A program made the translations under genes and the position numbers. Below are positions 14,496 through 31,910 of a stretch of 32,007 nucleotides of DNA, one piece after another (position 1 is the first letter of the stretch; every line of letters starts with the position of its first letter). The notes below the pieces were generated by a model, which was not told the origin of the DNA, ran no database searches, and was given only the letters and a program-made list of their open reading frames with translations. Where the stretch lies: the NCBI RefSeq assembly GCF_000385215.1, contig NZ_ARQK01000027.1:1-32007 (forward strand). Direction: 5' to 3'. Source of the DNA: Thioalkalivibrio thiocyanoxidans ARh2. Its GTDB lineage: Bacteria; Pseudomonadota; Gammaproteobacteria; Ectothiorhodospirales; Ectothiorhodospiraceae.

Positions 14496-16502
14496 TTACC
14501 TAATCCGGGCCAAAACTCGGCGAAGGGCCGCCCTAGACTGTCGTCCGAGTAGCCGCCATTGCCCTCCGACCGCCATCTCCGCAGCACGGAAAACCCATCT
14601 CATCAGCAACCCAGCGGAAATTGGCTCTGATGAGAATCGCCCGCGACCGAAGAACGACTCATTCCGCCACGTCGCGCCGTTCCCCAACAAAGGAGCAACA
14701 GCCTTGTCTATCCCTGCCTGAATGACACATCCTGAACCGGCAAATGACTCTTCCCCTAAGTGCCCCACCCTACCGCTCAACCAACTCATATACTCCACGA
14801 ACCCTTCCAGACGCTCTGAACTCAGCCGTTCGGTACCGAGGAGTACCGAGACGTAATACTCATCCAAATCCGTCGCTCCCCCCATAATAGCGCGATGAGT
14901 TCGAATCGTCTCCGCCTTCCTAACGTCGATCTGCTCCGCATATTTCGAAGCTGTAATCTGCTGATCATGAAGCCGGTACCAAACCAAAGGCACTCCCGCT
15001 AGCGCACCATCCAAGCCACTCGACCGAACGTTTCGATGTATCCATTCGCAGTCAATCCCTGCGGTCAACGACGAGTCGAAGGCTTCACTAAACTTGCTTC
15101 TTCTAAATGAAAAAGATGGAAAAGGGGCCGGCATCCCAAAGAGCGTTCTGGTCCGAATACTCGCGAAACTGATCAAATGCGGTGCTGCGGGCCCTTTGTC
15201 GAGCACATCCGAGAAATAATAACCTGAAAAACACGCCGCAGCTGGATACATCATAAAAAACCTTGCGGTCCACTCGAGTCGACGACTAACGCTCACGTCA
15301 TCCACGTCTGCGATGACACAGATGTCCGACGCGGCGTTGTTCACGGCGATGTTCAACGCTTCCGCTCGACCCACTCGATCACTTGCAATTATCCTCATAT
15401 TAAGCTGACCGGAATTCAGCTCGCGGAGCCTGTCCACAGTACCGTCGGAAGATCCATCATCGACTACCAGAACTTCAAATCTCTTATACGTCTGCAAGCG
15501 TAAGCTGCGGACATAATCTTCAATGAACGCTTCCCCGTCGCGGACTGTGGTTAAAACAGTCAACCATGGCCCGGCATCAAAGACACTGTGCCCAGCCGGA
15601 TCACGACCCATGGTTGCGTTAAACCAATCCACCTGGAGCCTCGGTACACCCGGACGGTTATACTTCTGAAAGAGGCGAGCGATCCAGTCTTTGTTAAGAC
15701 CCACCTTCAAAAGGTATTCATCAACCTCGAGATGCCTCTTGTCCTTATTTTTTCGTGAGGCATCGTTAGGCGCAAAATCATGACGAAGAATTGCCTGCGA
15801 TGCGTATCGGAATGCGTGCGGTCCGTAGAACCGAAGCATTCTTCCACAAAGCTCGATTCCTTCATGACCGTAAAGAGCTCCGTTAAACCCCCCAAACTCG
15901 AGGAATGCCAGCCGATCCCAACAAGTCCACCCCTCTGTGACGGGCGGCGCCAAGAAGACATTAGAACCTAGATCGTAATGCTTCGGAACATGAGATTCTT
16001 CATCAAAGGGAACTATACGACCTCTAGTGGCAACGGCGCCGGTACTCGCCGTAACTCGCACTAGTTCCTCAACCGATCCATCGTCTGGGATTCCATCGTC
16101 ATCTACAAAAACAACATATCGACCAGCAGAAACATTTGCACCGAGGTTTCGGGCCCTAGAAGGCCCAATATTACATGGTGCCGTTATGACCGTCGCTTGC
16201 TTCAGAACGTGTAGCGCGTCCGTGGCAAAAGCGTCATGTTTGTTATTAACTACGACAAGCTCAACCGCAGACTGGGTAGCAAGACTATCCAGTGCCTGTA
16301 GGAGCTCGACCGTCTTTTCCTCCCACCAATATGTCACAACAACAATCGAATACCTGACTTCCGCGGGATGGGAGCGAGCAACCTTCGAACGGAGGGCACT
16401 CTTCAAGGCCCCCATGATTTGTCGCTCGTTGGCCTGAAGTTCCGATAGAAGACCTGCTTGAAGAAGCGAACGACTTTTTTGTATTAATTCTAGAGTATTC
16501 AT
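14496..16502 (-). CDS. Tandem glycosyltransferase family 2 protein
   Basis: A 668-residue protein with two GT-A domains. Domain 1 (about residues 50-250) has YSIVVVTYWWEEKTVELL, the NIGPSRARNLGA block and metal-binding VDDDG (134-136). Domain 2 (about 312-530) has PWLTVLTTVRDGEAFIEDY, VLVVDDGSSDGT and IADVDDVS (399-402), typical of chain-elongating GT2 enzymes. The C-terminal 130 residues are without clear family. No membrane segments are seen, and a basic helix ends the protein (SRAALRRVLARIR). Two active centres in one chain often mean alternating linkages in a repeating polysaccharide. The gene is A/T-richer than its neighbours, and the 253-base upstream gap may contain its promoter. Confidence 0.88.
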   Translation of the reverse strand: MNTLELIQKSRSLLQAGLLSELQANERQIMGALKSALRSKVARSHPAEVRYSIVVVTYWWEEKTVELLQALDSLATQSAVELVVVNNKHDAFATDALHVLKQATVITAPCNIGPSRARNLGANVSAGRYVVFVDDDGIPDDGSVEELVRVTASTGAVATRGRIVPFDEESHVPKHYDLGSNVFLAPPVTEGWTCWDRLAFLEFGGFNGALYGHEGIELCGRMLRFYGPHAFRYASQAILRHDFAPNDASRKNKDKRHLEVDEYLLKVGLNKDWIARLFQKYNRPGVPRLQVDWFNATMGRDPAGHSVFDAGPWLTVLTTVRDGEAFIEDYVRSLRLQTYKRFEVLVVDDGSSDGTVDRLRELNSGQLNMRIIASDRVGRAEALNIAVNNAASDICVIADVDDVSVSRRLEWTARFFMMYPAAACFSGYYFSDVLDKGPAAPHLISFASIRTRTLFGMPAPFPSFSFRRSKFSEAFDSSLTAGIDCEWIHRNVRSSGLDGALAGVPLVWYRLHDQQITASKYAEQIDVRKAETIRTHRAIMGGATDLDEYYVSVLLGTERLSSERLEGFVEYMSWLSGRVGHLGEESFAGSGCVIQAGIDKAVAPLLGNGATWRNESFFGRGRFSSEPISAGLLMRWVFRAAEMAVGGQWRLLGRQSRAALRRVLARIR

Positions 16503-16755: not shown

Positions 16756-18264
16756 TCACCCCTTTGAAAACAGCCTCGCCAGGCGCCGCCTCAACGATCG
16801 GCGCTTCAGGGTTTCGTAACGCTGCTCGCATTCCCGAAGCTTCCGTGACACGTCTTCCAGTTCCTGAACACCTCGGGCGGCCTTCGCCCGCCCCAGGATC
16901 GTGCCATCGCGGCCATTGCAGAGCGTCTCGAGTCCTGCCCAGCCCAATGCATCCACGAGGCCACGCTCGTTCTCGCCATCGGGAGAAACCCCCAGAACGC
17001 CCAACATCGACATCGAGCGCGCGAGGCCCTGAGCTGCCACCAAGCGCTCCGCTGGGGAATCATTCATGAGGGTGCCTAATTGCTCGATCCAGACCACGTC
17101 GAACGCGGCCCCTTCCAGTTGCGAGGCCTGGCCATCCAGCGCGACCTGCCATGGGCCATCGCCAAACCCCGCGCTCACATGAGCCACATCGTCATTCGCG
17201 GCCAGCGCCCGCAAGGTCGGCTGCGTTGGATTCACCAGCACTACCTTCTTCCGGCGCCCGCGTCGCTTCAGGTCACTCTGCCGAAGCAGCTCATCAAAGA
17301 AGCCGCGCGCCTCCGGGAAGTCCGGCGTATCCCTTTCAGCTCCAGGTTCCGCGCCCTTGGGCTCCAAGCGGACGATTGCACGCAGAATTTGTTCAGCACG
17401 CGCCGAAAACGAGTAATCAGTACCGTGCTGATCCCACCACGACCGGACTCTCGAGAGTACAGAAGCGTAGGACTCATCCAGCTCCTTCAGCGCACTCTGC
17501 AACTCGTCTGCATTGTTCGCATAAAGCGCAGCATCCCCAACAACCGAGACCAATTCCGCAAAGCTGTCAGTGACCACAGGAACACCGCAAGCCATGCAGT
17601 CGAACACCCGGTTGTTGATGATGCCGAAATGGCGCATATCCGCCCAATGATCATTCAGGCTCGCCTTCGCGCCCTGATAGACCTCCGGCAACTCGCTGTT
17701 CCGAACATGCTCCCGGTACACCAGTTCAGCCAACCCGAACTGATCCCAGTGCCCGCCAATGAGTCTTGGCGGCCGGCCAGCCGCCAACGACCACTGCAGC
17801 ATGTCCCTGCGTACCCCACGGCTGTTTGCCACGAAGACCACGCCTTCTCGGCGCTTCGCGTCCTCTTCCACAGTACAGCCGGGCGGTGCAAACAGAGACA
17901 CATCCGTACATTGACGCATGACCTCCACCGGGGTGGAGGTCAACGGGGCGAATGTCGAATACAGCTTCTCCGACGCAACAAAGGCGACGGAATAACGATT
18001 CAACTCTTCTAACGAGACGGTCGCCGGATGACTGATCACCCAAAGCATCGAGACCTTATCCCTAGGGGGCACATACAAGCGCTTGCCCCGGAGCACCAGG
18101 ATGGCGTCCTCGCCATCATCCCGATCCCAGTCCGGCCAGAAGTGCTGCACCACTTCAATACCCAGTTCCTCAAGCGCACGCTTCAGCGACCCGCCAAAGG
18201 AGTAGTCCCCCCAGAACGTCTGCCTCGAGCCTTCCGGAGCCGGATTCTTGATCGCCAGCTTCAT
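16756..18264 (-). CDS. CgeB/YkvP-type glycosyltransferase (GT4-like) with extra C-terminal domain
   Basis: A 502-residue protein. Residues 1-290 form a GT-B glycosyltransferase of the CgeB/Glyco_trans_1_2 group. The diagnostic part is DMRHFGIINNRVFDCMACG followed by VPVVTDSFAEL (about residues 209-238), the donor-binding segment. Residues about 338-445 resemble a worn-down Rossmann methyltransferase fold (VVLVNPTQ...; FDVVWIEQLGTLMND...LLGVLGVSP) without a glycine-rich SAM loop. The end (about 455-502) is a charged coiled coil finishing in a basic helix (SLRRRLARLF), like other proteins of this locus. The gap to rfbC upstream is about 90 bases. It presumably adds one of the glycan sugars. Confidence 0.83.
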   Translation of the reverse strand: MKLAIKNPAPEGSRQTFWGDYSFGGSLKRALEELGIEVVQHFWPDWDRDDGEDAILVLRGKRLYVPPRDKVSMLWVISHPATVSLEELNRYSVAFVASEKLYSTFAPLTSTPVEVMRQCTDVSLFAPPGCTVEEDAKRREGVVFVANSRGVRRDMLQWSLAAGRPPRLIGGHWDQFGLAELVYREHVRNSELPEVYQGAKASLNDHWADMRHFGIINNRVFDCMACGVPVVTDSFAELVSVVGDAALYANNADELQSALKELDESYASVLSRVRSWWDQHGTDYSFSARAEQILRAIVRLEPKGAEPGAERDTPDFPEARGFFDELLRQSDLKRRGRRKKVVLVNPTQPTLRALAANDDVAHVSAGFGDGPWQVALDGQASQLEGAAFDVVWIEQLGTLMNDSPAERLVAAQGLARSMSMLGVLGVSPDGENERGLVDALGWAGLETLCNGRDGTILGRAKAARGVQELEDVSRKLRECEQRYETLKRRSLRRRLARLFSKG

Positions 18265-18355: not shown

Positions 18356-18904
18356 TCACAAAAACACATCCGCCTCAGAAAGACGCACACCTTCGCGATC
18401 CTTCGCTGAAAGTACCGGTTCGCCGTCAACAGGCCATTCGATGCCCACCTCGGGATCGTCCCAGGCAATGCATCGTTCCAGTTCCCGCGCGTAATAACCG
18501 GAGGTCTTGTACAGAAAGTCAGCCGACTCGCTCAGCGTGACAAAGCCGTGCGCGAACCCTTCGGGTATCCACAGCTGGCGCTTGTTCTCTGCCGACAACC
18601 GGGCACCCACCCAGCGACCGAACGTAGGCGAAGAACGGCGGATGTCCACCGCCACATCAAACACCTCTCCATTCACCACGCGCACCAGCTTCCCTTGTGG
18701 GCAAGGGGGTAGCTGGTAATGCAAGCCCCGCAACACCCCGCGCTGAGAGCGCGAGTGGTTGTCCTGGACAAACGTCGGAGCTAGGCCAGTCGCGTCCTCG
18801 AACGCACGGGCATTGAAGCACTCGAAAAAGAAGCCACGCTCGTCGCCAAAGACACGCGGCTCGAAGAGCACCACATCCGGAATCGCCAGGCGCTGTGCCT
18901 CCAC
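18356..18904 (-). CDS. rfbC: dTDP-4-dehydrorhamnose 3,5-epimerase
   Basis: A 182-residue cupin enzyme of standard RmlC length, catalysing the third step of dTDP-L-rhamnose synthesis. The signature QDNHSRSQRGVLRGLHYQ carries the catalytic His62, and FLYKTSGYY carries Tyr132. PEGFAHGFVTLS is the conserved barrel strand. I chose the GTG at 18902-18904 because GGGAGG stands four bases upstream; a longer frame begins with TTG at 18916, which overlaps that site. It lies 55 bases downstream of rfbA and is the last rml gene. Confidence 0.95.
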   Translation of the reverse strand: MEAQRLAIPDVVLFEPRVFGDERGFFFECFNARAFEDATGLAPTFVQDNHSRSQRGVLRGLHYQLPPCPQGKLVRVVNGEVFDVAVDIRRSSPTFGRWVGARLSAENKRQLWIPEGFAHGFVTLSESADFLYKTSGYYARELERCIAWDDPEVGIEWPVDGEPVLSAKDREGVRLSEADVFL

Positions 18905-18959
18905 GGTACCTCCCAAAGATATTTAGTAGAAACAAACAGAGCAGGCGGCAGCCCCGATA

Positions 18960-19844
18960 TCACGCGACCTGTTCTCGCAATACCCGCAACAGATACTGGC
19001 CATACCCATTCTTTGCCAGCGGAGCCGCCAGCCGTTCCAGCTGCTCCGCATCGATCCACCCCTTCCGGTAAGCGACCTCTTCAGGGCAGGCCACCTTCAA
19101 CCCCTGCCGCCGCTCCAGCGTTGCAATAAAGTGCGAGGCCTCCAGGAGACTGTCGTGTGTGCCGGTATCCAGCCAGGCGTACCCGCGCCCCATCAGCTCA
19201 ACGCTCAACGTGCCTTCCGCGAGATACATCCGATTGAGGTCGGTAATCTCCAGCTCCCCACGTGGCGACGCCTGAATCCGCCGAGCACGCTCCACCACCT
19301 GCTCGTCGTAGAAGTACAGCCCGGTAACCGCATAAGCCGACTTCGGGTTCGCCGGCTTTTCTTCCAGCGACAGCACCTTGCCATCGGCATCGAACTCCGC
19401 CACGCCGTAGCGCTCGGGATCGTGCACGTGATAAGCGAACACGCTCGCACCCTCCTGCCGCGCGGCCGCCCGCTCCAGCAACGGCTGGAAGTCATGGCCA
19501 TAAAAAATGTTGTCGCCCAAAATCAACGCAGCCAGGTCAACACCCAGAAAATCCGCACCAATCAGGAAGGCCTGGGCCAGCCCATCCGGGCTCGGCTGCA
19601 CCGCATACTCCAGCTCGATCCCCCACCGACTGCCATCCCCAAGCATCTGCTCGAAACGCGGCGTATCCTCCGGGGTGGAAATGATCAGGATCTCCCGGAT
19701 CCCGGCCAGCAACAGCGTGCAAAGCGGGTAATAGATCATCGGCTTGTCATAGACCGGCAGCAGCTGCTTCGAGACAGACAACGTCGCCGGATGAAGCCTA
19801 GTCCCGGCTCCACCAGCCAGAATTATACCTTTACGCCGTTTCAT
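18960..19844 (-). CDS. rfbA: Glucose-1-phosphate thymidylyltransferase
   Basis: A 294-residue RmlA enzyme, first step of dTDP-L-rhamnose synthesis (dTTP + glucose-1-phosphate to dTDP-glucose). [18 protein letters not shown] is the nucleotide-binding loop and [16 protein letters not shown] follows. ILGDNIFYG carries the metal-binding Asp, and [20 protein letters not shown] and [13 protein letters not shown] are family signatures. Length is typical. It is separated from rfbB/rfbD by three unrelated modification genes. The sulfotransferase-like gene ends 25 bases upstream, so the two are probably co-transcribed. Confidence 0.97.
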
Positions 19845-21066: not shown

Positions 21067-21140
21067 ATCGTTCTCCAAACCTTCAAGGAACCCCCAACCC
21101 ACACTCGAGGGCCAAGGCGAGTAAGCGCAGACGCGGGACT

Positions 21141-21848
21141 TCAGTTAGGTGGGTAGCCGGGCTCTCTCGTCAAATTCTTCCAAATCGCGCGCTCCGAGTA
21201 TCGAGCAGAACCGATGCCTACAGCAGCGAGAAAAGAAGGTATGACGTCGCCATCGCGCCGCAACGCGGCATCGTAGTCAATTGTAATCAGAGGGCCCACC
21301 CGACCCCAGAATTCGAAGAGCGCTTCCCGATCATAATACCAGACTCCATCCGGACGCTCAGCTTCCTCAAGCTCAGCGCATTGCGCCTGAATACCCATCT
21401 TCCTTATTTGACCCCCGAACGACTTACGCCAAGCTCTCTCCTCTCGCATAACCAGAATCGGAATCACCTCATCGACCAGCTTCAGGACGGTGGCCTCTAG
21501 CTCCCTGCGCTCCCTATCCTCTCTTAGGAAGCTGAACGCTTCTGAACTCAGAAGGAACGATGAATAGCGCGACTCGCCAATAGATTTTCGGACATGGTCG
21601 AGCATCTTGTCCTGCACAGCTCTCTCGACCACCGGCTTCGCCTGCCGTAGCCTCATCGGTGTACGGACTTCCGGTCGGATAAACCTGTGAGCTAACGAAT
21701 ATTGATTTGCCTTTCCGTCCGGGGTCAGAAGCGGAATGACTCCTGCTTCTGTGAAAAGCGACACTCGATCTTCCATGAGCGTTTGAATGGATGTCGTGCC
21801 GGTCTTGTGCGTCCCAACATGCAGGTATAGCCTGGAAGTGTCGTTCAT
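21141..21848 (-). CDS. Sulfotransferase-like P-loop protein
   Basis: A 235-residue protein opening with RLYLHVGTHKTGTTSIQTLM, a clear PAPS-type phosphate loop (HVGTHKTGTTS). LLSSEAFSFL and IPILVMREERAWRKSFGGQI follow; the latter is the probable 3'-phosphate-binding region. It is shorter than the next gene's product and lacks its coiled coil and SWRLT tail. It lies 74 bases upstream of that gene, so the locus carries two different sulfotransferase-like enzymes side by side, perhaps with different acceptor positions. The ATG start lacks a strong ribosome binding site. Confidence 0.75.
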   Translation of the reverse strand: MNDTSRLYLHVGTHKTGTTSIQTLMEDRVSLFTEAGVIPLLTPDGKANQYSLAHRFIRPEVRTPMRLRQAKPVVERAVQDKMLDHVRKSIGESRYSSFLLSSEAFSFLREDRERRELEATVLKLVDEVIPILVMREERAWRKSFGGQIRKMGIQAQCAELEEAERPDGVWYYDREALFEFWGRVGPLITIDYDAALRRDGDVIPSFLAAVGIGSARYSERAIWKNLTREPGYPPN

Positions 21849-21878: not shown

Positions 21879-22823
21879 CTATTTCCTAGCCACTAGTCGG
21901 CCACCGGCGTTTCTAAGGCCACGCATCAAGTGGCGCACCGGCGCGGTGAACCTCCAGCTAGCCGACGACCTGAACGCCTGGATCCTTCGCTGCGCATCAA
22001 GCAAACGTTTTCTTATCGCCTTGTTGGTGTCCTGGCACTTCACGAGTTCCCGCTCCAATGCTTCCACCCTACGGCCTACCAGGGCCCCATCATGCGACGT
22101 GAGACCTGAAGTAGTCGAAGCCTCCGGGCCGGATCGGCGACCCTGGTACGCCGGAATCGTCGCTACCCCCGTTTTCAGATGAAACGGCTTTTCAACTGGG
22201 CGCTTCTCGATTACGAGTATACTGTCATAGTAATGCAACGAATGTACCGAGCTGGTGAAATCGGTAACGGCAAGCCTAGCTTCATCTTCCGAATGCCAGG
22301 CGTGCAAAAGGTCAACGAAGTTCTTGCTGTATTCAATAAAACTCCCGGCTCGCCCATATCCTCCACCCCACTTCCGCCAATAGGACGTATGGAGGTCTTC
22401 GCACAGATACACGCCATTAGAGTCAATCGCGGGGAAAAGCTCTTCAAAGGTATTGATCTGCTGTGCCATGGTGTGGCCGCCGTCGTCGATCAATATATCA
22501 ATTCTCGGGATCCGCTCCTTCACCGAATCAAGAAACCGCCGGTCCTCTTGATCACCGATAAGGATCTCCACCTGATCCTCTTCGAGCGCCTTGCAGTTCG
22601 GATTTACATCGATGCCGACTATTTTTGCTTTGGGTCCAAAATACTCTTTCCACATCTGCAGGGACCCGCCCTGCGAGACACCAAACTCCACAACATGGAC
22701 ATCCGTTCCGCGAAACCTAGAGAAATGCCGATCATAGATCTCGAAATAATGCCGCCACTTGTGGATCAGGCGCCCTGTGTTCTCGAAAAACAATCTTTCC
22801 AGGTCGTTTTGGTACTCTTCCAT
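21879..22823 (-). CDS. Class I SAM-dependent methyltransferase with C-terminal coiled coil
   Basis: A 314-residue protein. Residues 40-195 form a class I methyltransferase similar to macrocin/MycE-type sugar O-methyltransferases. HVVEFGVSQGGSLQMW is motif I, AKIVGIDVNPNCKAL binds SAM ribose, IDILIDDGGHTMAQQINTF supplies the metal-binding acidic cluster, and GVYLCEDLHTSYW follows. The C-terminus has a short coiled coil (VEALERELVKCQDTNKAI) and SASWRFTAPVR, placed exactly 17 residues from the end as in the sulfotransferase-like protein. I chose the ATG at 22821-22823 with GAAGG eight bases upstream, rather than the GTG at 22838. It probably methylates a sugar hydroxyl of the glycan. Confidence 0.85.
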   Translation of the reverse strand: MEEYQNDLERLFFENTGRLIHKWRHYFEIYDRHFSRFRGTDVHVVEFGVSQGGSLQMWKEYFGPKAKIVGIDVNPNCKALEEDQVEILIGDQEDRRFLDSVKERIPRIDILIDDGGHTMAQQINTFEELFPAIDSNGVYLCEDLHTSYWRKWGGGYGRAGSFIEYSKNFVDLLHAWHSEDEARLAVTDFTSSVHSLHYYDSILVIEKRPVEKPFHLKTGVATIPAYQGRRSGPEASTTSGLTSHDGALVGRRVEALERELVKCQDTNKAIRKRLLDAQRRIQAFRSSASWRFTAPVRHLMRGLRNAGGRLVARK

Positions 22824-22865
22824 GGCGCATGCCTTCACAATTGTCGTTTTCCTATCCGACCTGCC

Positions 22866-23765
22866 CTATAACGGCTTCTGAACGACCTGCTCCACGACTC
22901 GTTTCACCCCTGCCTCCCATTCGGGAAGCCGAAGGCCAAACGTCGCCTCCAACTTCCGGCAGTCCAGACGCGAGTTGGCGGGCCTTGCCGCGGGCGTAGG
23001 CCACTCACTCGACGTAATCGCGTGGACCGAACGAGTCTTGATGGGCCAACCAAGCGTCTTTGCGTGTTCGATCAGGAGTTCAGCGTAGGCATGCCAGGAG
23101 GTCGCCCCCCTAGGGGCCAAGTGAAAGATGTCGCCGCGCTGCGCTATACGTCCGTTCAAGGCGTCCCGTAGCGCATGGGCGGTCACGTCCGCGATCAGAT
23201 GCGCCGGTGTTGGCGCGCCCATCTGGTCGGCTACCACTTTCAGCTCAGGGCGCTCACGGCTTACCTTCAGCATCGTCTTGAGAAAGTTGTGCCCATGCAC
23301 CCCAAACACCCAGGAGGTGCGAAAGATGAGCGCGGCGGCGCCGCTGGCGATGATTGCTTGCTCGCCTTCCAGCTTGGTGGCGCCGTAAACCGACTTCGGC
23401 CCAATCGGGTCCTCTTCCCGCCACGGCCGTTCGCCGCTACCGTCAAAGACATAATCCGTCGAGTAGTGGATGAGCCACGCGCCGACCGCCTTTGCCTCCT
23501 CGGCGAGAATGCGCACGGCCTGTGCGTTGACCGCCGCCGCAAGGTCCGATTCGCTCTCCGCTTGGTCAACGGCGGTATACGCGGCTGCGTTGACGATCGC
23601 CGCGGGGCGTACCTCCCGTATCCAGCCTCGGAGCGCCTCCGGGTCGGCGAGATCGCAACACGCTCGGTCCAGCAACACCAGCCGCCCGAGTGGAGACAAG
23701 GCCCGTTGCAACTCCCAGCCCACCTGCCCATTGGAGCCGGTCACCAGAATGGCCTGTTCAGCCAT
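22866..23765 (-). CDS. rfbD: dTDP-4-dehydrorhamnose reductase
   Basis: A 299-residue RmlD enzyme performing the last step of dTDP-L-rhamnose synthesis. [18 protein letters not shown] is the NADPH-binding loop, [33 protein letters not shown] is the family block, STDYVFDG and [12 protein letters not shown] carry the catalytic Thr/Tyr/Lys, and [14 protein letters not shown] follows. I chose the ATG at 23763-23765, which overlaps the rfbB stop by eight bases; a longer frame to 23795 would overlap more of rfbB. Translation coupling with rfbB is likely. Confidence 0.96.
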
Positions 23766-24867
23766 GGTTTGCCCCGCCCACCCCTTGTCCGCCATAGTGC
23801 TTTTCCACCCAATCCCGGTAGGCCCCGCTGGTCACGCGCTCGACCCAGTCCCCATTATCGAGATACCACTGCACCGTCTTTCTCAGGCCCGTATCGAAGG
23901 TCTCCCTGGGTACCCAGCCAAGCTCCCGCTCAATCTTGCTCGCGTCAATAGCGTACCGAAGATCATGGCCCGGCCGGTCCGCCACGAAGGTGATCAGGTC
24001 ACGGTAATGCTTCACCCCGTCCGGCTTGTCCGGCGCCAACTCTTCAAGTAGCTCGCAGACACGCTCCACCACCTCGAGGTTCGTCACCTCGTTATGACCG
24101 CCAATGTTATAGGTCTCCCCCACTTCGCCTTCAGTAGCCACCTTGATAAGTGCGCGGGCATGGTCCTCCACATACAACCAATCGCGCACCTGCTGTCCGT
24201 TGCCATACACCGGAAGCGACTTGCCCGCCCGCGCATTGAGAATCATCAAAGGAACCAATTTCTCGGGAAAGTGGTAGGGGCCGTAGTTGTTACTGCAGTT
24301 TGTAATCAACGTCGGCAAGCCATAGGTCCGTTGCCAGGCGCGAACAAGATGGTCGGAGCTGGCCTTGCTCGCCGAATAAGGGGAACTCGGCGCGTATGGC
24401 GTCGTCTCAGTAAAGAGGTCCTCACCGCCGTGGAGGTCCCCGTAGACCTCATCTGTCGAGACATGATGAAAACGAAACCTTTTAGCTTTCTCCGGGTCAG
24501 ACTCTTTCAAATTCTGCCAGTACACCCGTGCCGCCTCTAAAAGAGTATATGTTCCAACGATATTGGTCTCAATGAATGCGGCAGGCCCATCGATGGAACG
24601 GTCTACGTGGCTCTCTGCCGCCAAATGCATCACCACGTCCGGGTGATATGTTTGAAACACATCCCGCATCGTCGCGGCATCACAGATATCCGCGTGAACG
24701 AACGTATATCTTGAATCAGAGGCCATAGAACTCAGCGACTCTAAATTCCCTGCATAGGTGAGTTTGTCGACATTGACGACACCCACCCACGAAAGATCGA
24801 CCAATTCACGAATCACCGCAGAGCCAATAAAGCCCGCACCACCGCTAACAAGAACCGTTCGATGCAT
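23758..24867 (-). CDS. rfbB: dTDP-glucose 4,6-dehydratase
   Basis: A 369-residue RmlB enzyme, second step of dTDP-L-rhamnose synthesis. [16 protein letters not shown] binds [18 protein letters not shown] and [13 protein letters not shown] carry the Asp/Glu pair of the dehydration step, and [15 protein letters not shown] carries the Tyr/Lys pair. [19 protein letters not shown] is diagnostic. The second ATG (24865-24867) has AGGA six bases upstream, while the first ATG at 24873 abuts it, so I favour the second. It lies 46 bases after the giant fusion gene. Confidence 0.97.
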
Positions 24868-24913
24868 TTTCATTCCTAGCTATCACTCAATACTCTAATG
24901 AAGCTTCAGTGGG

Positions 24914-27900
24914 TCAATGATTGAGACTCGAAACCTCATCAACAGGCGCACGTTCACGCGCCGGCTCGGAGTCTAGAACAGGCTTAAAACCCCTGATAAC
25001 TTCTTCCTTGTCCTTTTCACCCTTCCAATCTTTCACTCGAAATCCGTCACTCTTATACATAGGCAGATCATCTGCAACAATATGATTTTTCCAACGCTCT
25101 ACAAACACCCGCCTATTTTGGTCAACGTAACGGCCACGTCCTAGCGTCTTCGACTCAAAATGTACAACCTTACTTTCAGGCACGTAGGCGGCTTCTTTTC
25201 CGGTCCCCTTGTGTAGTCTTAAGCACAAGTCGACATCTTCTTGCCCGTTGATGTAGATCGGATCAAACCCCTCTACGTCGGCAAAGTCTTTCGCTTTTAT
25301 CGCCAAGCATGCGGCTGTGATTGCTCTAAAACGCCTAGGCTTATCCGCAGCGCATTCCTCCGGATGCATGCCTTGATAGATAGGATAACCCAAGGCGCTC
25401 TTTTCCGAAAATACTATGCCCATACACTGCAACGTACCATCAGGGTAGATCAACTGAGGCTGTGCGGCGTAGACCTCCGATTTCTCGATCGGATCTAATA
25501 ATGGTCTCAACCAGTTTTCTTGTACCTCAGTGTCATTGTTAAGAAAGACGCAAAACTCTCCTCTCGATACAGCAAACCCTAGATTCGACCCAAGCGCGAA
25601 ATTCTGGTTTTCGTTTTGCCTAACCACTCGCAACATTCGGTAAGCCGATTGAAGCGCTAATAGCCCTTGCGCCGTTTTATACCCACTACCGTTATCGACA
25701 ACAATCACCTCGTAATCGAAACCTTGCGTATGCCGTATGACTGACTCTACGCATTGCTGTGTCAGGGCTAATCCGTCATAAACCGGGACAATGATAGAAA
25801 TCATTCCCATAGTATGTGGCTTCTCACGTAGGTCTTGCCAATTTATAGCCTTGTTCTTGCTACGCAGGTACCAAGCTTGGGAGCAACCAATCCCACCGCT
25901 AAACTGACCGTAAAGTAGGTAATGAACAATTAGGTCGATGTGCGGGGATACGTACCCACTAAGGCCTTTTTCCTCCAAAAACCTTTGGTAGCAGGATTCG
26001 TCCAGCAACCCCGCCGCACGAAACGTTTTCTGGTAGCTCACCAACGGGTCTGAATTTCGTTTCGCGTCAATTGCATTTTCGAGCGCCCATCTCTGTGCGT
26101 ATAACTCCTTCGCGCGCCGCCGCAACTCGCCAAACAGGGGATTAGCCTGCATGCTTGCGACCGCCCGTTGAACGCGCGCGCGTCCATAGGTGGCGGCGAG
26201 TGTCTCCGAACCCGCCTTCATGAGCGCGATCCGTTCTGGGCCGAGATAGCTTTTTGACTTCGTGTGAAAGACGTACGTGTGCGCCGCCACCACCAGACCG
26301 AATCCGTTATCGACCGCGCGAAAACAGTAGTCATTCTCCTCGCCGTACCCTCTGGGAAATTTTTCCTCATCCATGAATCCAATCGTGTTAATAACCTCCC
26401 GCGTCACACCAAAACAGAAACCGTGAACTAATGGCGTTCTAGGCAAAACGCCTGCTGTGGCCCACTGCTCACAATAGCGATTCAAGTCCTCCGCCGACAT
26501 GTACGGCGGCAACTCGTTAGTTGCTGTCTGGTTATTCGAACCCTGATGCTCGGGAATGGACTGATGGCTGGCTGCACTAGACATAGGCCCCACAATGCCG
26601 GCACCGGGCGTGGAAAATACAGCATCCGCAAGCTTTTCCGCCCAGTCGGCGGTCACGATGGTATCGCTGTTCAGGAGAATGACAAGCTCGCCCGTTGACG
26701 CAGCGAGTCCTTTATTTGCGGCTTTTGTATAGCCACTTGCTTCCTCATGGCGATAAAGTTGAACCCAAGCCTTTTCCGCAAACCCCCTTAGATAGCTGGC
26801 TGTCGCCTCCTCCGAACCATCATCCACAATGATGAGCGTTTGATTTTCACTTGCCCTCGCTCGTGCGATAGAGTCTAGGCAAATCCTCACGTCCTCAAGT
26901 GCATTATGCACGCAGATCACTACGTCTATTTTCCGCTGCCGCTGGGCTTGGACGCGTTCATCCTTCCCGTCGAGAAAACTAGAACCCGCATATGGGTCGA
27001 CCACAGGCGCCTGAAGGCCCCTGACCAGCGTCGAGGCTGGTCCTTGGCCGCTATCATGGCCGACCAGAACAAAGTCAGGATGGTTACGGACGCTGTTGGG
27101 GCGTGCAAACAAACGGTGCCATTCAATTCCCGCTTTGTTCAACGCATAGTTTTTGCTGAGCTGATCGCGCCGGCTGTAACGGTCGATTTCTGCCCACCAA
27201 GTGTTAAAGAATCGCGAACAAAGAGAATGAGCATCCCGCAAGTTACTCATCATTAAGTTGCTTTCGATGAGATCGTCATGGACGAACCCGAGGGCACGAT
27301 AGTGTTCAATTTGATCGTGCATCAGCGACAAGTCATCCTTATTCGCCCGCCCACACGCTTCTACCTCTTCGTAAATAGTCCTCCTTAGTGGATGTGGGAT
27401 CGCTCCGATGGCCTTTCCGGACGAGAGAAACTCATCAATGAGAGGATAGATATCTCCCAGGATCATGATGTTGGAGTCGATCCACACCACGACGTCATAT
27501 TCGGGAAGCAGCCAATGAGGGTGCGTTTTTACGAACCGTGCGGTGCGCGTGGGGTCGTCGTGGAAAAAGGTGATAGGCCGAACCTGCCAGACGCCCGTGC
27601 CGGGCATTTCTGTGTCGGTATACAGGATATAATCAAGGCGCGGATCAACCACCTCCGGTAGTTTAAGCGAGTCATAGCCACCGGAGATCGCCGTATAGAC
27701 TGCAATTCTCGGCTCCCCGCTCGCTTCACGTTGCTGCGCCACGATGGGTCGGGACTGTACGTAGTCGTCGATCTGTGCCTTGTAGCACTCAAGGTTGGCC
27801 ATACGACGGGCCACACTGGTGTACAGCCTTGCTTGCCGTTCCGCCTCACCCCCGGGGCTACATCGGGCTAAGATGGCTTCCCACTGTTCAACAGCTGGTG

Positions 27901-29170
27901 ACCAGTGTTCCGAATCGAACGTTTTGCGGGCTTTTGCGATTGCCTTGGTCAGCGCATCGTCGCCCTTTGAACCGAAGCGTTGCGATACCGGCAAGTGCCG
28001 CTTCGCGGCTCGACGCACCCTTTTGGGAATCATCCTCTTTACACGCAAAGGGACGTAGCGTCGGTAATAGGGGCGTACCGCTTTGGCCGCGCGACGAAAC
28101 TGCCCGGTCATGATCCACCAAAGCAACTTCATTACCCGGACTGCGTTGCGGACCATCCACCTGAAGCCTCTCGACAGAGCCCGAAGAGGGAAGGTGAGAC
28201 GCCAGCTGGCCGAGTTCCTAAGTTCTCGGATGGAGCGCTGACATGCTGATTGTTTGGAGGAGAGCGTGTTCAGTTTCTCTTGCTGTTTTTCCAGCTTGGC
28301 GGAGAGCTGGTTCACCTCCCCTTCCCGCTCTTTCAGTTTCTTGTTAAGTGCGGTTTCCTTCTCATCGGCTCTGTGCTTTTCGGCGCGGTGTTGGAAAGCC
28401 TGTTTCGGAGAGGAACCCAGCCTATTGTAAGCATCCCGAACAGCCACTGTAGCTTGTGGGTCAGAGGCGGCAGCAAACAGTGTTCTGAGACCTGGAGCAA
28501 GTTCCGGGCCATAGCCCAACACCCCCAGTCCGTGGCCATGCAGGAACTCGAAGCTCGGAAATTCGGTACGGAGCTCTTCCCATAGGCGGAAGACCCCAAA
28601 GTTTCGCTCTCGAACGTTGGTATCGTGAAACAGGACCACGGCGCGGTCGGATAACTTTGGAAGCCAACTCTCGAAATCGTGCTTTACGTCCTCGTAGAAA
28701 TGGCGCCCATCGATATGCAGCAGGTCGATGCTGCCGTCGGTGAAGTGCTCGAGTGCGTCATCGAACGATGAGCGGACCAGGCGGGAGAAACTCGAATAGT
28801 GCGTGTCGTTGTGGGACTTCACACGCTCGTAGATGGACTCATCATAAAAACCGGCGTGCTCATCCCCTTGCCAATGATCCACGGCATAGCACCGGGTTTC
28901 GGTACCCAACGCCTGAACAGCCTGGCAGAAAGCGAAATAGGAGTAACCACCGTGCGTGCCCAGCTCCACAACCGTACGGGGCCGGTGTGCGTCGATCAGC
29001 CAGAAGGCAAAGGGGCCGTGGTCCAGCCAAGCCGATGACTCCAGGTAATTCGGCCACCAAAACGATGCCGGCGACAGGCAGTGACGGAGGAGATCCCCCT
29101 CCGCAATGTCGTGGTCGTCCGGCCTTGTCAGGCGTTCCGGGCCCCCCCTTTTATCCATGCTGCGTGTCAC
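24914..29170 (-). CDS. Four-domain methyltransferase / DUF616 / GT2 / GT2 fusion protein
   Basis: A 1418-residue cytosolic enzyme. Residues about 45-250 form a class I methyltransferase (TVVELGTHGGYSYFAF; IDLLHIDGRHFYEDVKHDF; VVLFHDT). Residues 262-315 are a charged coiled coil, followed by SASWRLTFPLR (320-330) and a basic stretch. Residues about 487-705 match DUF616, a glycosyltransferase-like domain (AVYTAISGGYDSL; DVVVWIDSNIMIL; IPHPLRRTIYEEV). GT2 domain 1 spans about 747-975 (IDVVICVHNALEDV, LLNSDTIV, GYGEENDYCFR). GT2 domain 2 spans about 1124-1365 (SIIVPVYDGLALTQQC, LNNDTEV, NGQEDVDLCLRL). The GTG start has GGAG seven bases upstream; an ATG lies four codons later. Three transferase centres suggest it assembles several linkages of one repeat unit. 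Confidence 0.88.
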   Translation of the reverse strand: MTRSMDKRGGPERLTRPDDHDIAEGDLLRHCLSPASFWWPNYLESSAWLDHGPFAFWLIDAHRPRTVVELGTHGGYSYFAFCQAVQALGTETRCYAVDHWQGDEHAGFYDESIYERVKSHNDTHYSSFSRLVRSSFDDALEHFTDGSIDLLHIDGRHFYEDVKHDFESWLPKLSDRAVVLFHDTNVRERNFGVFRLWEELRTEFPSFEFLHGHGLGVLGYGPELAPGLRTLFAAASDPQATVAVRDAYNRLGSSPKQAFQHRAEKHRADEKETALNKKLKEREGEVNQLSAKLEKQQEKLNTLSSKQSACQRSIRELRNSASWRLTFPLRALSRGFRWMVRNAVRVMKLLWWIMTGQFRRAAKAVRPYYRRYVPLRVKRMIPKRVRRAAKRHLPVSQRFGSKGDDALTKAIAKARKTFDSEHWSPAVEQWEAILARCSPGGEAERQARLYTSVARRMANLECYKAQIDDYVQSRPIVAQQREASGEPRIAVYTAISGGYDSLKLPEVVDPRLDYILYTDTEMPGTGVWQVRPITFFHDDPTRTARFVKTHPHWLLPEYDVVVWIDSNIMILGDIYPLIDEFLSSGKAIGAIPHPLRRTIYEEVEACGRANKDDLSLMHDQIEHYRALGFVHDDLIESNLMMSNLRDAHSLCSRFFNTWWAEIDRYSRRDQLSKNYALNKAGIEWHRLFARPNSVRNHPDFVLVGHDSGQGPASTLVRGLQAPVVDPYAGSSFLDGKDERVQAQRQRKIDVVICVHNALEDVRICLDSIARARASENQTLIIVDDGSEEATASYLRGFAEKAWVQLYRHEEASGYTKAANKGLAASTGELVILLNSDTIVTADWAEKLADAVFSTPGAGIVGPMSSAASHQSIPEHQGSNNQTATNELPPYMSAEDLNRYCEQWATAGVLPRTPLVHGFCFGVTREVINTIGFMDEEKFPRGYGEENDYCFRAVDNGFGLVVAAHTYVFHTKSKSYLGPERIALMKAGSETLAATYGRARVQRAVASMQANPLFGELRRRAKELYAQRWALENAIDAKRNSDPLVSYQKTFRAAGLLDESCYQRFLEEKGLSGYVSPHIDLIVHYLLYGQFSGGIGCSQAWYLRSKNKAINWQDLREKPHTMGMISIIVPVYDGLALTQQCVESVIRHTQGFDYEVIVVDNGSGYKTAQGLLALQSAYRMLRVVRQNENQNFALGSNLGFAVSRGEFCVFLNNDTEVQENWLRPLLDPIEKSEVYAAQPQLIYPDGTLQCMGIVFSEKSALGYPIYQGMHPEECAADKPRRFRAITAACLAIKAKDFADVEGFDPIYINGQEDVDLCLRLHKGTGKEAAYVPESKVVHFESKTLGRGRYVDQNRRVFVERWKNHIVADDLPMYKSDGFRVKDWKGEKDKEEVIRGFKPVLDSEPARERAPVDEVSSLNH

Positions 29171-29289: not shown

Positions 29290-30219
29290 CTATTGACGTT
29301 CGCGGCGTGCGGGACGTAACAGCAGCCGAAGCATCTCGTGGAGCTCATGTCCCCAGAGCCGCGACTGGACCGCCAGTGCGATGACCCGGTATCGAAGGCT
29401 ATATTCTCGTGCCATCGCATATCGGTAGTACAGGTGGAGCGGCGGCATCAGCGTCCGCAGGGCCCAGTAGGCGCGCGCATGCATGGTCCCCGATAGCACC
29501 TGCCCTCCCTTGATGCGGCGGGCCTTGGAGACTACCTCTTTCCAGGACTCGCGTGCGGGATGCCGCACCACCGCGTCGCTGACGAACTGGATGGAATAGC
29601 TGCTAGCGCACGCGCGGCGGCAGAAAGCGGCATCGCCTCCCGAATAACGCGTCGAATCGAACCCGCCCAGCATCGCCATTACCGATCGGTGTACCAGAAG
29701 GTTGGCGGTGGCTGCGTAGCCGCGGCGCACATAATGCGCTTGCGGGATTCCGCGGATCAGGTCGTAGATTTCGTAGGCATTGGGGCACGCGGAGTCCGTG
29801 TACATCTCGACGGCGCCGGCCAGAAGAGCTCTTTGTCCCTCCTGCTGAGCTTGGCCGAACATGGCCTCGAGCCACCGGGGATCGGGTCGACAATCGGCAT
29901 CGGTGAAGGCGAGCCAGTCCCCTGCCGCGGCTTCGATACCGATGTTCCGGGCCGCATAGGATCCCGGCGTTTCGCAGTTCAGAATACGAACGTTGTCGGG
30001 AAGGCTTTCCGGCGGCTCGTAATCCGTGGAGCCGTTGTCCACCAGCAGCACTTCAAAGGACTCTTGCGGGAAGGTCTGTGCCTGCAGGCAGTCCAGCAAC
30101 CCCGGAACCAAGCCCCAGTGGTTGTAGACGGGCACGATGACCGAGCAGACCAGCCGAGATGAATCTTCCGCTGCGCTGTTCGAGTGCCGCTTGCTGGGGG
30201 ATAAGGGACTCCCGCTCAT
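29290..30219 (-). CDS. Glycosyltransferase family 2
   Basis: A 309-residue GT-A enzyme. CSVIVPVYNHWGLVPGLLDCL begins the fold at about residue 25, VLLVDNGSTD follows, then GSYAARNIGIEAAAGDWLAFTDADCRPD with the metal-binding Asp107-Ala-Asp109. The GGDAAFCRRACA part resembles the acceptor-side ED motif, with Asp only. There is no clear membrane segment, though the C-terminal region is hydrophobic and aromatic (LMPPLHLYYRYAMAREYSLRY). The ATG overlaps the stop of the upstream membrane-kinase gene by four bases (ATGA), indicating coupled translation and a functional link. Confidence 0.9.
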   Translation of the reverse strand: MSGSPLSPSKRHSNSAAEDSSRLVCSVIVPVYNHWGLVPGLLDCLQAQTFPQESFEVLLVDNGSTDYEPPESLPDNVRILNCETPGSYAARNIGIEAAAGDWLAFTDADCRPDPRWLEAMFGQAQQEGQRALLAGAVEMYTDSACPNAYEIYDLIRGIPQAHYVRRGYAATANLLVHRSVMAMLGGFDSTRYSGGDAAFCRRACASSYSIQFVSDAVVRHPARESWKEVVSKARRIKGGQVLSGTMHARAYWALRTLMPPLHLYYRYAMAREYSLRYRVIALAVQSRLWGHELHEMLRLLLRPARRERQ

Positions 30220-31910
30220 TCCCTTAGCCCCTCGTTAGCGGAAGGCTCAAAGGGCCGCGCGAGCAATCCGACAAGGCGGGGCGCAAGGGCGACGGCAGGG
30301 CTGAACCGTTGGTGGTCAATCAAAGACTCCAGTTCGTGGCTCAACGCGGCCAGTGCCGACGCGGCCGCGTGCTCTTCAAGGATCTGCAGTTGTTCGGGCT
30401 TGGTCGGCGATCCGGCCCCGGCCGGTTCGATCGCCCAGCTTCCCCAATGAAGGAGCGTGGGCGCCCCTGCCTCGGTCATTACGATATTGCCGGGCCGAAC
30501 GTCACGCGTGGTAATCGCCAGGGGCAATGCGGCGAGTTGGTCGCGCCAGTCCTGTAGGCGAGCGCGCAGCTGGGCGAGGGCACTGAGGGCCTGTGAATCG
30601 CTGGCGGCGATCCGGAGGCGTTCCAGCATGCTGTCGTTGACGCGCTGCCACAGCATGGGCCGGGATCGCTGGTAACGGGTCAACAGAGATTGTGGCGGCG
30701 GGACTTGCAGCAAGGCCTGGCGGATCTCTTCGACGCCCTTGGCGGTGTCGCCCTGCCTGATCGGGAGCTCTTCAGCGACCTGCAGTACGTGGCAATGGAA
30801 GCCGCGCACCTGCGTGGCGCCGATCCATTGCGGGCTGGGCAAGCCATTGGGCGGGTCGGCCAGCAGGGTCGCTTCGTGCAGGGCGTAGGCGCTGCGTTTG
30901 GGGGCAAACAGCTTGACGAAGATGCTCGGCTTTCCGGGCGTACGGCAATGCAGCACGCCCACGTTGACCACATCGGTTTGCCACCACTGGATGTCCAGAT
31001 CCTTGGGGGCGGGCTCGCCGTACATCTCGGCGATGAGCTCCGGGACCCATTGCTGGCGTTTTTCCGGCGCAAGGAGGGTCCAGATGGTTTCCTTCTTATG
31101 GTCCTCTTCCGGGATAAAGGCGCTCTTGTGGAAGAACAGCGCATCCAGCTTGGCCTTCTGGCTGCGCTGTTTCACCAGGTCCGAGACGAGGCTCGAAAGC
31201 CGGTTGAAGCCCTGGCGGGAGAGCAGCAGCGCGATGATCGCCGGGATCAGGCCGGGTGGATCGAGGAACAGGAAGTCGATCACCAGGTAGGCGAAGGCCA
31301 GCATGAAGCCGATGCCCGAGAGCACGCCCATCCAGCCGGCCAGGTTGTCCTCGAGGCGTTCGCGGAACACTTCGCTTACGGCTAGGGCGGCCAGGAGTGC
31401 AACGGCTACCAGGAGAACGTATCCGGCAGCCAGGAGCGCAACCCCTTGATACAGCCAGAGCAGGATGCCCAGCGCCAGCAGCAGAAACACGGCTCCCGCG
31501 ATCACCTCGGCATGGCGTTTGTAGGCGCGAGCGGCCAGTTCGTCCTGGTTCTCGAACAGGACCATCTTGCGGCTGCGGGCGAGCAAAGTTCTTGAGCCAC
31601 GTTCGCCGCCGAACTCCACGATGCGTTCGGCTAGCAGGTACAGGGTATAGAAGGCGACTGTGGCGGCACTCAGCCAGACGATCAGGGAGTCACGGTCGAA
31701 CTGCTCGAAGGACGGCGGGAAGTAGCGCGGGATGCCGTCCGAGCCCAGCAGGATGATGACCTTCAACGGGAGGAAGAAGGCCAGCAGCATGGAGAGCTGC
31801 GACACCAGGGTGAAGAACACTACGCCGCTGGTCGCGGTTGGGGCCGCCCAGAAGAATTTGGCGCCCAGGCGGCTGCTCCATTTCAGGCTGTCGAGGATGG
31901 CGCGGATCAA
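30216..31910 (-). CDS. Membrane protein with degenerate kinase-like C-terminal domain
   Basis: A 564-residue protein I cannot assign to a named family. The N-terminal half has about six hydrophobic segments (about residues 27-55, 76-97, 135-157, 158-178, 193-217, 219-235). Its beginning (SQLSMLLAFFLPLKVIILLGSDGIP) resembles the first helices of ABC-exporter transmembrane domains, but there is no ATPase domain. The C-terminal half (about 290-560) looks like an aminoglycoside-phosphotransferase/kinase fold: IFVKLF (Lys333), LHEATLL (Glu346) and TTRDVRPGNIVM (Asp470, Asn475). The metal-binding D-F/W-G position is LLHWGSW, with His488 in place of Asp, so it may be a pseudokinase. Start is TTG; no ATG or GTG lies upstream before the REP element. 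It is first in the locus and overlaps the next gene. Confidence 0.7.
   Translation of the reverse strand: MIRAILDSLKWSSRLGAKFFWAAPTATSGVVFFTLVSQLSMLLAFFLPLKVIILLGSDGIPRYFPPSFEQFDRDSLIVWLSAATVAFYTLYLLAERIVEFGGERGSRTLLARSRKMVLFENQDELAARAYKRHAEVIAGAVFLLLALGILLWLYQGVALLAAGYVLLVAVALLAALAVSEVFRERLEDNLAGWMGVLSGIGFMLAFAYLVIDFLFLDPPGLIPAIIALLLSRQGFNRLSSLVSDLVKQRSQKAKLDALFFHKSAFIPEEDHKKETIWTLLAPEKRQQWVPELIAEMYGEPAPKDLDIQWWQTDVVNVGVLHCRTPGKPSIFVKLFAPKRSAYALHEATLLADPPNGLPSPQWIGATQVRGFHCHVLQVAEELPIRQGDTAKGVEEIRQALLQVPPPQSLLTRYQRSRPMLWQRVNDSMLERLRIAASDSQALSALAQLRARLQDWRDQLAALPLAITTRDVRPGNIVMTEAGAPTLLHWGSWAIEPAGAGSPTKPEQLQILEEHAAASALAALSHELESLIDHQRFSPAVALAPRLVGLLARPFEPSANEGLRE

Follow-up and report, generated by a model that had tools for sequence, protein, structure and literature searches.

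A candidate mosaic glycan assembler joining a methyltransferase, a DUF616 domain and two GT2 domains in Thioalkalivibrio thiocyanoxidans ARh2

Introduction

When a polysaccharide is exported by an ABC transporter, a polymerase extends the chain, a capping enzyme caps it and the exporter reads the cap. Fusion synthases headed by a Methyltransf_24 (MT24) domain unite chain growth and capping in one protein. Several systems bear on this design, as far as excerpts of the cited reports describe them. WsaE, of the S-layer glycan of Geobacillus stearothermophilus NRS 2004/3a, has an N-terminal methyltransferase and two rhamnosyltransferase domains, and its methyltransferase targets alpha-1,3-linked rhamnose, where the methyl is regarded as capping the chain (PMC2943079, PMC3898925). 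In PBCV-1 A064R, two rhamnosyltransferase domains and a methyltransferase construct the terminal part of an N-glycan and methylate it, and no polymer is formed (PMC9614988). A Sinorhizobium NGR234 cluster was reported as necessary for the rhamnan O-antigen (PMC3732241), and the plant enzyme MUCI70/RGGAT1 of Arabidopsis showed galacturonosyltransferase activity in vitro towards RG-I (PMC10576798).

In this study, we analyzed a gene in a window of 32,007 nucleotides, the whole stretch of DNA considered, which is an entire contig (contig end at 32007). We regard its product, with about even chances, as a WsaE-like mosaic glycan assembler in which a methyltransferase head and coiled coil are joined to a DUF616-GT2 pair and another GT2 domain. 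Compared by description rather than by sequence, WsaE shares the N-terminal methyltransferase, two glycosyltransferase (GT) domains per polypeptide and a rhamnose cluster; it is described as a three-domain protein, whereas the fusion protein has an additional DUF616 domain and coiled-coil/basic segment. A064R, likened in the same way, also carries two rhamnosyltransferases and a methyltransferase acting on terminal rhamnose in a single protein, but in the order GT-GT-methyltransferase, in 638 aa and for a viral N-glycan.

Gene structure and domain composition

The fusion gene had been predicted as one uninterrupted frame of 1418 codons, and its coordinates proved exact, with the gene on the minus strand (Table 1). 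Counted from GTG the frame was stop-free, it reached 1455 codons when measured from the preceding stop, and a GGAGAG sequence lay 5 bases 5' of the start; the plus-strand reading contained many stops. Codon position 2 had the lowest GC of the three positions in all seven segments of the gene, which is coding-like, and, among ORFs of 100 aa or more, no other that overlaps the gene exceeded 154 aa. A chance ORF was rejected as the identity of this stretch.

Table 1. Coordinates of the fusion gene, its parts and neighboring genes in the window
Feature	Position	Strand	Details
Fusion gene P0001	24914..29170	minus	1418 aa; GTG start; GGAGAG upstream
Methyltransf_24 domain	28463..29092	minus	residues 27-236, Pfam core 68-184; VELGTHGG, HIDGRH, LFHD motifs
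Coiled-coil-like helix	28214..28459	minus	residues 238-319; modelled as single helix 238-318
SASWRLTFPLR motif and basic segment	27971..28213	minus	residues 320-400; 23 K/R, 0 D/E
Helical linker	27731..27970	minus	residues 401-480; structure models
DUF616, PF04765 TOD1_MUCI70 glycosyltransferase-like domain	27056..27718	minus	residues ~485-705
First GT2	26081..26935	minus	residues 746-1030; LLNSDT, GYGEEND motifs
Linker between GT2 domains	25826..26080	minus	residues 1031-1115; no Pfam match
Second GT2	24917..25825	minus	residues 1116-1418; FLNNDT, QEDVDLCL motifs
Single GT2 gene upstream of fusion gene	29290..30219	minus	Pfam
rmlB, dTDP-glucose 4,6-dehydratase	23758..24873	minus	TIGR01181
rmlD, dTDP-4-dehydrorhamnose reductase	22866..23795	minus	TIGR01214
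Separate Methyltransf_24-like gene	21879..22838	minus	3' end codes coiled coil and SASWRFTAPVR
rmlA, glucose-1-phosphate thymidylyltransferase	18960..19844	minus	TIGR01207
rmlC, dTDP-4-dehydrorhamnose 3,5-epimerase	18356..18916	minus	TIGR01221
Glycosyltransferase gene, Glyco_trans_1_2	16756..18264	minus	Pfam
Second tandem GT2 protein	14496..16502	minus	668 aa; Pfam

Pfam analysis revealed Methyltransf_24, PF04765 and two GT2 domains, joined by the coiled coil and the very basic segment. This agrees with the module list of the original prediction, by both Pfam and predicted structures for the methyltransferase, helix and DUF616 and by Pfam for the GT2 domains. The GT count changed, however: the GT2 pair is present, but since DUF616 is now described as glycosyltransferase-like, the gene encodes one methyltransferase and three GT domains, not two. 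Columns invariant in the alignments of relatives stayed invariant once the fusion protein was added, for all four domains.

Methyltransferase and DUF616 folds

The methyltransferase and DUF616 regions were folded from separate alignments; a joint alignment of residues 1-745 placed the starts of DUF616 rows on the methyltransferase. For both regions the expected fold was recovered. First, Methyltransf_24 was matched with E=4.3e-28, and the predicted structure of residues 1-480 (10-row alignment) had a mean pLDDT of 71.2, with the methyltransferase core blocks mostly above 80. All 50 listed structural matches to this model were methyltransferases, including Rv0187, which we take to be one, and the top match was the sugar O-methyltransferase MeT1. 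MeT1 was the closest solved structure by both profile and fold, and an excerpt of its report gives oligomannosides as its methylation substrate (PMC9883506).

Second, PF04765, the former DUF616, currently named TOD1_MUCI70 and described as glycosyltransferase-like, matched residues 525-679 (E=3.2e-16; 60.0 bits against a cut-off of 21.4). For prediction, the fusion protein was aligned with 37 loci out of 80 obtained from viral contigs, and across these 38 rows six columns were invariant and nine nearly so; in a five-row alignment, the W-DG position of DUF616 was WIDS in the fusion protein. The resulting model of residues 395-745 (38 rows; mean pLDDT 81.9) retrieved only glycosyltransferases among the 50 PDB matches listed, with E values from 6.5e-6 to 9.6e-5. 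Its predicted fold is that of a GT-A type glycosyltransferase, at a moderate level of match (TM on target 0.23-0.57, rmsd mostly 5-8 Angstrom). A non-enzymatic role for DUF616 was rejected. MUCI70/RGGAT1, a plant enzyme, is likened to this bacterial domain by Pfam family name. In the open PMC literature, as far as excerpted, the plant pectin enzyme accounts for the only tested DUF616 activity in print, and the domain is now placed within a rhamnose-linked bacterial assembler. DUF616 is presumably CAZy family GT116; open PMC gave no match for RGGAT1 paired with GT116.

The GT2 domains matched Glycos_transf_2 (PF00535) in two stretches (E=5.4e-45; 153.8 bits for the whole protein against a cut-off of 23.3), and both copies keep their catalytic motifs (LNSDT/GYGEEND and LNNDT/QEDVDLC). 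GT2 sequence does not reveal donor or linkage.

Relatives and mosaic composition

Judged by sequence comparison, the fusion protein is a mosaic: relatives of its methyltransferase-coiled-coil head, of its DUF616-GT2 pair and of its last GT2 occur in other arrangements. The head is shared with a protein of a Rhodospirillaceae MAG (L027:5899-9051; methyltransferase 76% identical over 205 columns), which has the same MT24-coiled coil-SWR order; where the fusion protein goes on to DUF616-GT2-GT2, this one has RgpF and a weak match of GT2 type. The middle resembles WP_082128383.1 of Hoeflea sp. IMCC20628, in which DUF616 is followed by GT2 (45% identity over fusion residues 459-1024), but this protein has 672 aa, no MT24 and one GT2 stretch only; G381 likewise pairs DUF616 with the relative of the first GT2. 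The last GT2 was closest, among the proteins compared, to one protein each from NGR234 and Azospirillum Az39, which were nearly tied.

The NGR234 protein (NGR_RS31785, WP_240545287.1, presumably y4gI) is an MT24-GT2-GT2 fusion encoded beside rmlA/D/B in pNGR234a, between a rhamnan-synthesis-F gene and rmlB. Its methyltransferase and last GT2 were 59% (205 columns) and 32% (269 columns) identical to those of the fusion protein, but it has 902 aa, lacks a PF04765 match, showed no SWR motif and is only 23% identical to the first GT2. In Azospirillum oryzae, an MT24-GT2-GT2 gene of 1145 aa follows an ABC permease/ATPase pair and precedes rmlC, B, D and A.

The combination had been called unusual, which holds in part. 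Fusion of MT24 to a GT domain or to RgpF is not exceptional (ten such proteins were seen), but none of the ten contained DUF616. The suggested search for the same architecture gave, in the samples searched, no second protein that unites MT24 with DUF616 and a pair of GT2 domains; fusions of this general sort are already known, and this particular assortment was not found in the collections sampled. Among the matches listed from 58 kin genomes (own included), none was full-length, the best other spanning residues 46-330. The DUF616 fragment matched three others among 369 class genomes, and PF04765 three others among 398 phylum genomes (one under the cut-off; own genome included in both sets) and none of 14 control genomes. 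In the same 398 genomes, the methyltransferase fragment matched 12 others at E≤1e-20, five of which were scanned for architecture. Six short peptide patterns scanned against genome contigs gave eight loci. Coverage of 80% was reached by none of the plasmid matches (303 of 72,556 records by protein, 23 records by DNA) and none of the phage matches (31 of 50,697). Because these collections are samples and the peptide-pattern scan is insensitive, absence of the architecture elsewhere is not proven. Open PMC matches to the SWRLT motif concern a rule language, not biology.

The lack of a full-length relative in these collections is what an artefact, in which a sequencing error or misassembly fused separate genes, would predict, but we consider this very improbable. 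The frame is single and clean, with coding-like GC across all segments. Furthermore, there is no sign of a frameshift, because the methyltransferase-coiled-coil-SWR block and the DUF616-GT2 block are each contiguous in other proteins (L027, 58% over 332 columns; Hoeflea, 45% over 568 columns), and the only junctions without a counterpart among the proteins compared were SWR-DUF616 and GT2-last-GT2. A frameshift origin was therefore rejected.

The mosaic pattern also bears on a second alternative, namely that methyltransferase head, coiled coil and SWR segment form a module for recruitment or regulation that was exchanged onto a DUF616-GT2-GT2 synthase of unrelated origin, with methylation perhaps not at the chain end. 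The GT sets attached to SWR-motif heads differ among L027, L205 and L207, and the head in L030 shares its frame with no GT. GC3 drops from 0.69 at the methyltransferase to 0.49 at the last GT2, consistent with mosaic origin. However, the conserved methyltransferase motifs are retained and the nearest relative of solved structure, MeT1, has sugar substrates according to the same excerpt (PMC9883506), so this explanation appears unlikely.

Gene cluster and export context

The expected link to rhamnose was supported by rmlB, rmlD, rmlA and rmlC, all on the strand of the fusion gene. Three more GT genes, which together encode four GT domains, also lie in the cluster; because of these, the term 'all-in-one' assembler was too strong, and part of the chain building could be performed by other proteins.

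A WsaE-type system would be recognized by an N-terminal methyltransferase with at least two GT domains, rml genes, Wzm/Wzt with Wzt_C, homology, and rhamnosyltransferase plus 2-O-methyltransferase activity. Here, the N-terminal SAM methyltransferase, its fusion to two or more GT domains and the dTDP-rhamnose genes (rmlB, D, A, C) were found. Wzm/Wzt with Wzt_C was not found nearby: WsaE is described, in the excerpts, with wzm and wzt directly upstream, whereas the host genome, rated 100% complete, had no Wzt_C match, and its four ABC2_membrane matches all lie on other contigs. Cap-dependent ABC export is therefore unsupported in the host, which lacks the domain that, in relatives, is linked to recognition of completed chain ends. 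A Wzx route of the PF01943 family is also unsupported, since this flippase had no match in the host genome, compared with 13 of the 14 controls.

On the other hand, the ABC ATPase scanned at MT24-headed loci contained Wzt_C in eight of ten cases (L027, L029, L039, L053, L204, L205, L206 and L207), which fits export of capped chains in these relatives; among control genomes, a Wzt_C match of any kind occurred in 2 of 14. Thus, a recurring design is suggested rather than a peculiarity of WsaE. The ATPases were chosen by eye, and L028, L030, L203 and L208 lay outside the ten. The two loci without Wzt_C (L055 and L210) include NGR234, the best-documented rhamnan case, where the ABC protein that was scanned belongs to a different type and carries fused membrane and ATPase domains.

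Proposed function

The fusion protein probably assembles a portion of a surface glycan chain. As a WsaE-like assembler, it would oligomerize through the coiled coil and be seated by the basic segment on the inner membrane face, where the three GT domains would add sugars to a surface glycan linked to a lipid. One or more of these domains may transfer L-rhamnose from dTDP-rhamnose made by the neighboring rml genes. The methyltransferase would then methylate a hydroxyl on the newly added end sugar, and this methyl would block further addition, so that chain growth would end or be limited. The earlier idea of chain-ending methylation is plausible by analogy with WsaE and with the Wzt_C loci, although the host genome itself lacks Wzt_C; such a genome would offer a clean setting for testing whether the methyl alone halts growth.

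The same lack of Wzt_C would also suit a decorator that does not terminate chains, in which the GT domains build a defined oligosaccharide once per acceptor and the methyltransferase adds an ordinary O-methyl group, with no control of length. A decorated glycan is further suggested by the second MT24-like gene and by two genes that we take to be sulfotransferase-like by motif (no Pfam match). A064R offers a precedent for end methylation without a polymer, as excerpted (PMC9614988). However, the missing PF01943 match and the Wzt_C at most of the relatives' loci, which points to capping, argue against it, and we consider such a decorator possible but doubtful.

Finally, returning to the WsaE-like assembler, a more specific version appears rather improbable: a rhamnogalacturonan-like chain made by one polypeptide, with L-rhamnose added by the GT2 domains, a uronic acid added to rhamnose by DUF616 like RGGAT1, and the chain ended by the methyltransferase; as export would proceed without Wzt_C, chain length would be set within the one protein. 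NDP-sugar dehydrogenase matches above the cut-off numbered three in the host genome and at least one in 13 of the 14 control genomes.

Domain composition of the fusion protein

Analysis of the fusion gene (24914-29170, minus strand) revealed a single frame of 1418 codons that runs from a GTG start, with GGAGAG 5 bases upstream, to a stop codon, and GC content by codon position was coding-like in all seven segments checked, which bears out the uninterrupted frame of the original prediction. The host genome (2.77 Mb, 61 contigs) has a completeness rating of 100%; the window is a complete contig (C27; 32,007 bases), and the cluster is readable only between its ends.

Pfam analysis of the product, P0001, identified Methyltransf_24 (MT24) at residues 68-184 (E 4.3e-28), PF04765 at residues 525-679 (E 3.2e-16) and two Glycos_transf_2 (GT2) stretches (E 5.4e-45). 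Formerly called DUF616, PF04765 now bears the description 'TOD1/MUCI70, glycosyltransferase-like domain'; because of this description, P0001 has three likely glycosyltransferase (GT) domains. An AlphaFold model of residues 395-745 with 37 relatives (mean pLDDT 81.9) gave 151 PDB matches at E≤0.001, and all 50 listed were glycosyltransferases with moderate TM scores; 4ayj, a blood-group-type enzyme from a bacterium, and WbbM stood first among those listed. Searched against PDB sequences, the DUF616 profile gave one match, which was not meaningful (E 0.51). For residues 1-480, modeled with 9 relatives (mean pLDDT 71.2, confident methyltransferase core), the first PDB match was MeT1 of Mycobacterium hassiacum, also top in a methyltransferase profile search of PDB sequences (E 7.8e-7; IDGxH and HD motifs aligned). 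MeT1 methylates oligomannosides, according to the part of the source consulted (PMC9883506). The predicted enzyme-like modules were recovered by Pfam, and structure prediction backed the methyltransferase, DUF616 and helical regions.

A recurrent coiled-coil and basic segment

Residues 238-318 form a single long helix in the AlphaFold model. SASWRLTFPLR (SWR motif) and a basic segment come next: residues 320-400 (81 in all) contain 23 K/R and lack D/E. No Pfam match covered this module in P0001. Coiled coil, SxSWRxTxPxR and basic tail also form the C-terminal end of two other products of the cluster (see table). At the DNA level, the SWR pattern matched three times in the host genome, all in these three genes of the glycan cluster (reversed control, one), and at 22 places in 58 genomes, the host's included (control, 4). 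By eye, 12 of the 22 lay in frame after a coiled-coil-like stretch, and the other 10 were chance-like. A looser form, [ST]xSW[RK]x[TS]xP[LIVMF]R, was present in 19 distinct proteins among the loci examined, including methyltransferase, GT1 and GT2 proteins. The segment may have a membrane or docking role.

The module also occurred at L027, L030, L031, L033, L053, L055, L141, L142, L147, L151, L152, L155 and L156 (loci examined outside this cluster); MAGs of Terriglobales (one) and of Clostridia also had it. Coiled coil, SWR motif and a mostly basic stretch recurred as linker or tail in methyltransferases and glycosyltransferases.

Features of the cluster (window positions)
Feature	Position	Strand	Basis or remark
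SWR motif, fusion gene	28182-28207	-	Pattern match
SWR motif, 21879-22838 gene	21934-21959	-	Pattern match
SWR motif, 19870-21102 gene	19925-19950	-	Pattern match
Gene without Pfam match	19870-21102	-	N-terminus presumably sulfotransferase-like by motif
Gene without Pfam match	21141-21848	-	N-terminus presumably sulfotransferase-like by motif
Kdo kinase candidate	13513-14490	-	Weak match, below cut-off
Gene without Pfam or NCBIfam match	30216-31910	-	Membrane helices and kinase-like part by eye

Occurrence and origin of the domain combination

Ten of the proteins scanned joined MT24 with either a GT domain or RgpF (L027, L039, L053, L054 and L203-L208), and none of them contained PF04765. Few genomes of the class sample carry DUF616 (4 of 369, the host included). 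MT24-GT2-GT2 and DUF616-GT2 fusions are each ordinary, but MT24, DUF616 and two GT2 domains in one protein were not found elsewhere in the genome, plasmid and phage samples searched.

DUF616 relatives were frequent in IMG/VR contigs (228 stretches, 80 of them listed, L058-L137). Forty frames were measured and 10 long ones domain-scanned: all 10 had PF04765, accompanied by a GT-type domain in six (GT2 in three), DUF5672 in one, a TupA domain in one and nothing further in two.

Blast comparison with chosen relatives showed P0001 to be a mosaic whose parts have relatives in other combinations. The methyltransferase was 76% identical over 205 columns to that of a Rhodospirillaceae protein (L027), which shares the methyltransferase-coiled coil-SWR head but carries RgpF behind it. 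A Hoeflea protein of 672 aa shares 45% identity with residues 459-1024 (DUF616 and first GT2), and a 1403 aa protein in another genome (G381) has DUF616 and GT2 in reversed order. Copies of the first GT2 (41-43% identical) lie behind SWR segments in two genomes (G012, G032), with no PF04765 match there. Among the relatives compared, the last GT2 was nearest, almost equally, to the NGR234 and Azospirillum Az39 proteins (~32% each). GC3 fell from 0.69 at the methyltransferase to 0.49 at the gene's end.

Gene neighborhood, possible capping and export

On the minus strand, a GT2 gene (29290-30219) comes before the fusion gene. Then follow rmlB and rmlD, a gene resembling MT24 methyltransferases, the two putative sulfotransferase genes that lack Pfam matches, rmlA and rmlC, one further GT gene, a gene with tandem GT2 domains and the Kdo kinase candidate. 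The set looks like a cluster for a surface glycan that contains rhamnose. The 30216-31910 gene had no Pfam or NCBIfam match.

In Geobacillus, the sections of the sources consulted describe WsaE as an N-terminal methyltransferase plus two GT domains in one protein (PMC2943079), methylating α1,3-linked rhamnose as a presumed chain cap (PMC2943079, PMC3898925); the methylated chain is predicted to be bound by Wzt. The nearest traceable case is the pNGR234a protein, located between a rhamnan-synthesis-F gene and rmlB, in an rgpF-rmlB cluster reported, in the portion consulted, as necessary for rhamnan O-antigen (PMC3732241).

ABC ATPases at ten MT24-headed loci, selected visually in ORF lists or through annotation and leaving out L028, L030, L203 and L208, were scanned for Wzt_C, which was present at eight (L027, L029, L039, L053 and L204-L207) and absent from the ATPase scanned at L055 (E. 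coli plasmid). The NGR234 ABC protein (L210) is of another type, with a fused membrane domain and no Wzt_C. As a baseline, any Wzt_C match occurred in 2 of 14 control genomes. A further Wzt_C, outside the ten-locus count, lay close to a putative methyltransferase gene at L057. The eight loci suggest a recurring cap-and-export design. The original interpretation, in which methylation times or ends chain growth, is partly supported: these loci favor it, but the host genome itself had no Wzt_C match. It also had no PF01943 flippase match (present in 13 of 14 controls), and its four ABC-2 permease matches all lie on other contigs. P0001 differs from the WsaE type in the exporter expected of a strict member; our best reading is that it may work like WsaE, and we do not claim that it is a WsaE.

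The E. coli plasmid pPSJ-12_1 (L055) carries polysaccharide export and synthesis genes, with an unfused counterpart: a 912 aa MT24 protein (methyltransferase 65% identical) and a separate tandem GT2 gene.

Possible donor of the DUF616 domain

Plant MUCI70/RGGAT1 has galacturonosyltransferase activity on rhamnogalacturonan I, as stated in the excerpt consulted (PMC10576798). Because of this activity and the adjoining rhamnose genes, a rhamnose-uronate chain is allowed, and the host may supply a uronic acid donor, given its three NDP-sugar dehydrogenase matches above cut-off. Such dehydrogenases also occurred in 13 of 14 control genomes, and we consider a rhamnose-uronate product quite improbable.

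Elsewhere on the contig, glycogen/maltodextrin-type genes occupy 365-7110 (GH77, GH57, a GlgC-like nucleotidyltransferase and GlgB), and a PIN-domain gene (9112-9546, plus strand) possibly encodes the toxin of a toxin-antitoxin pair.
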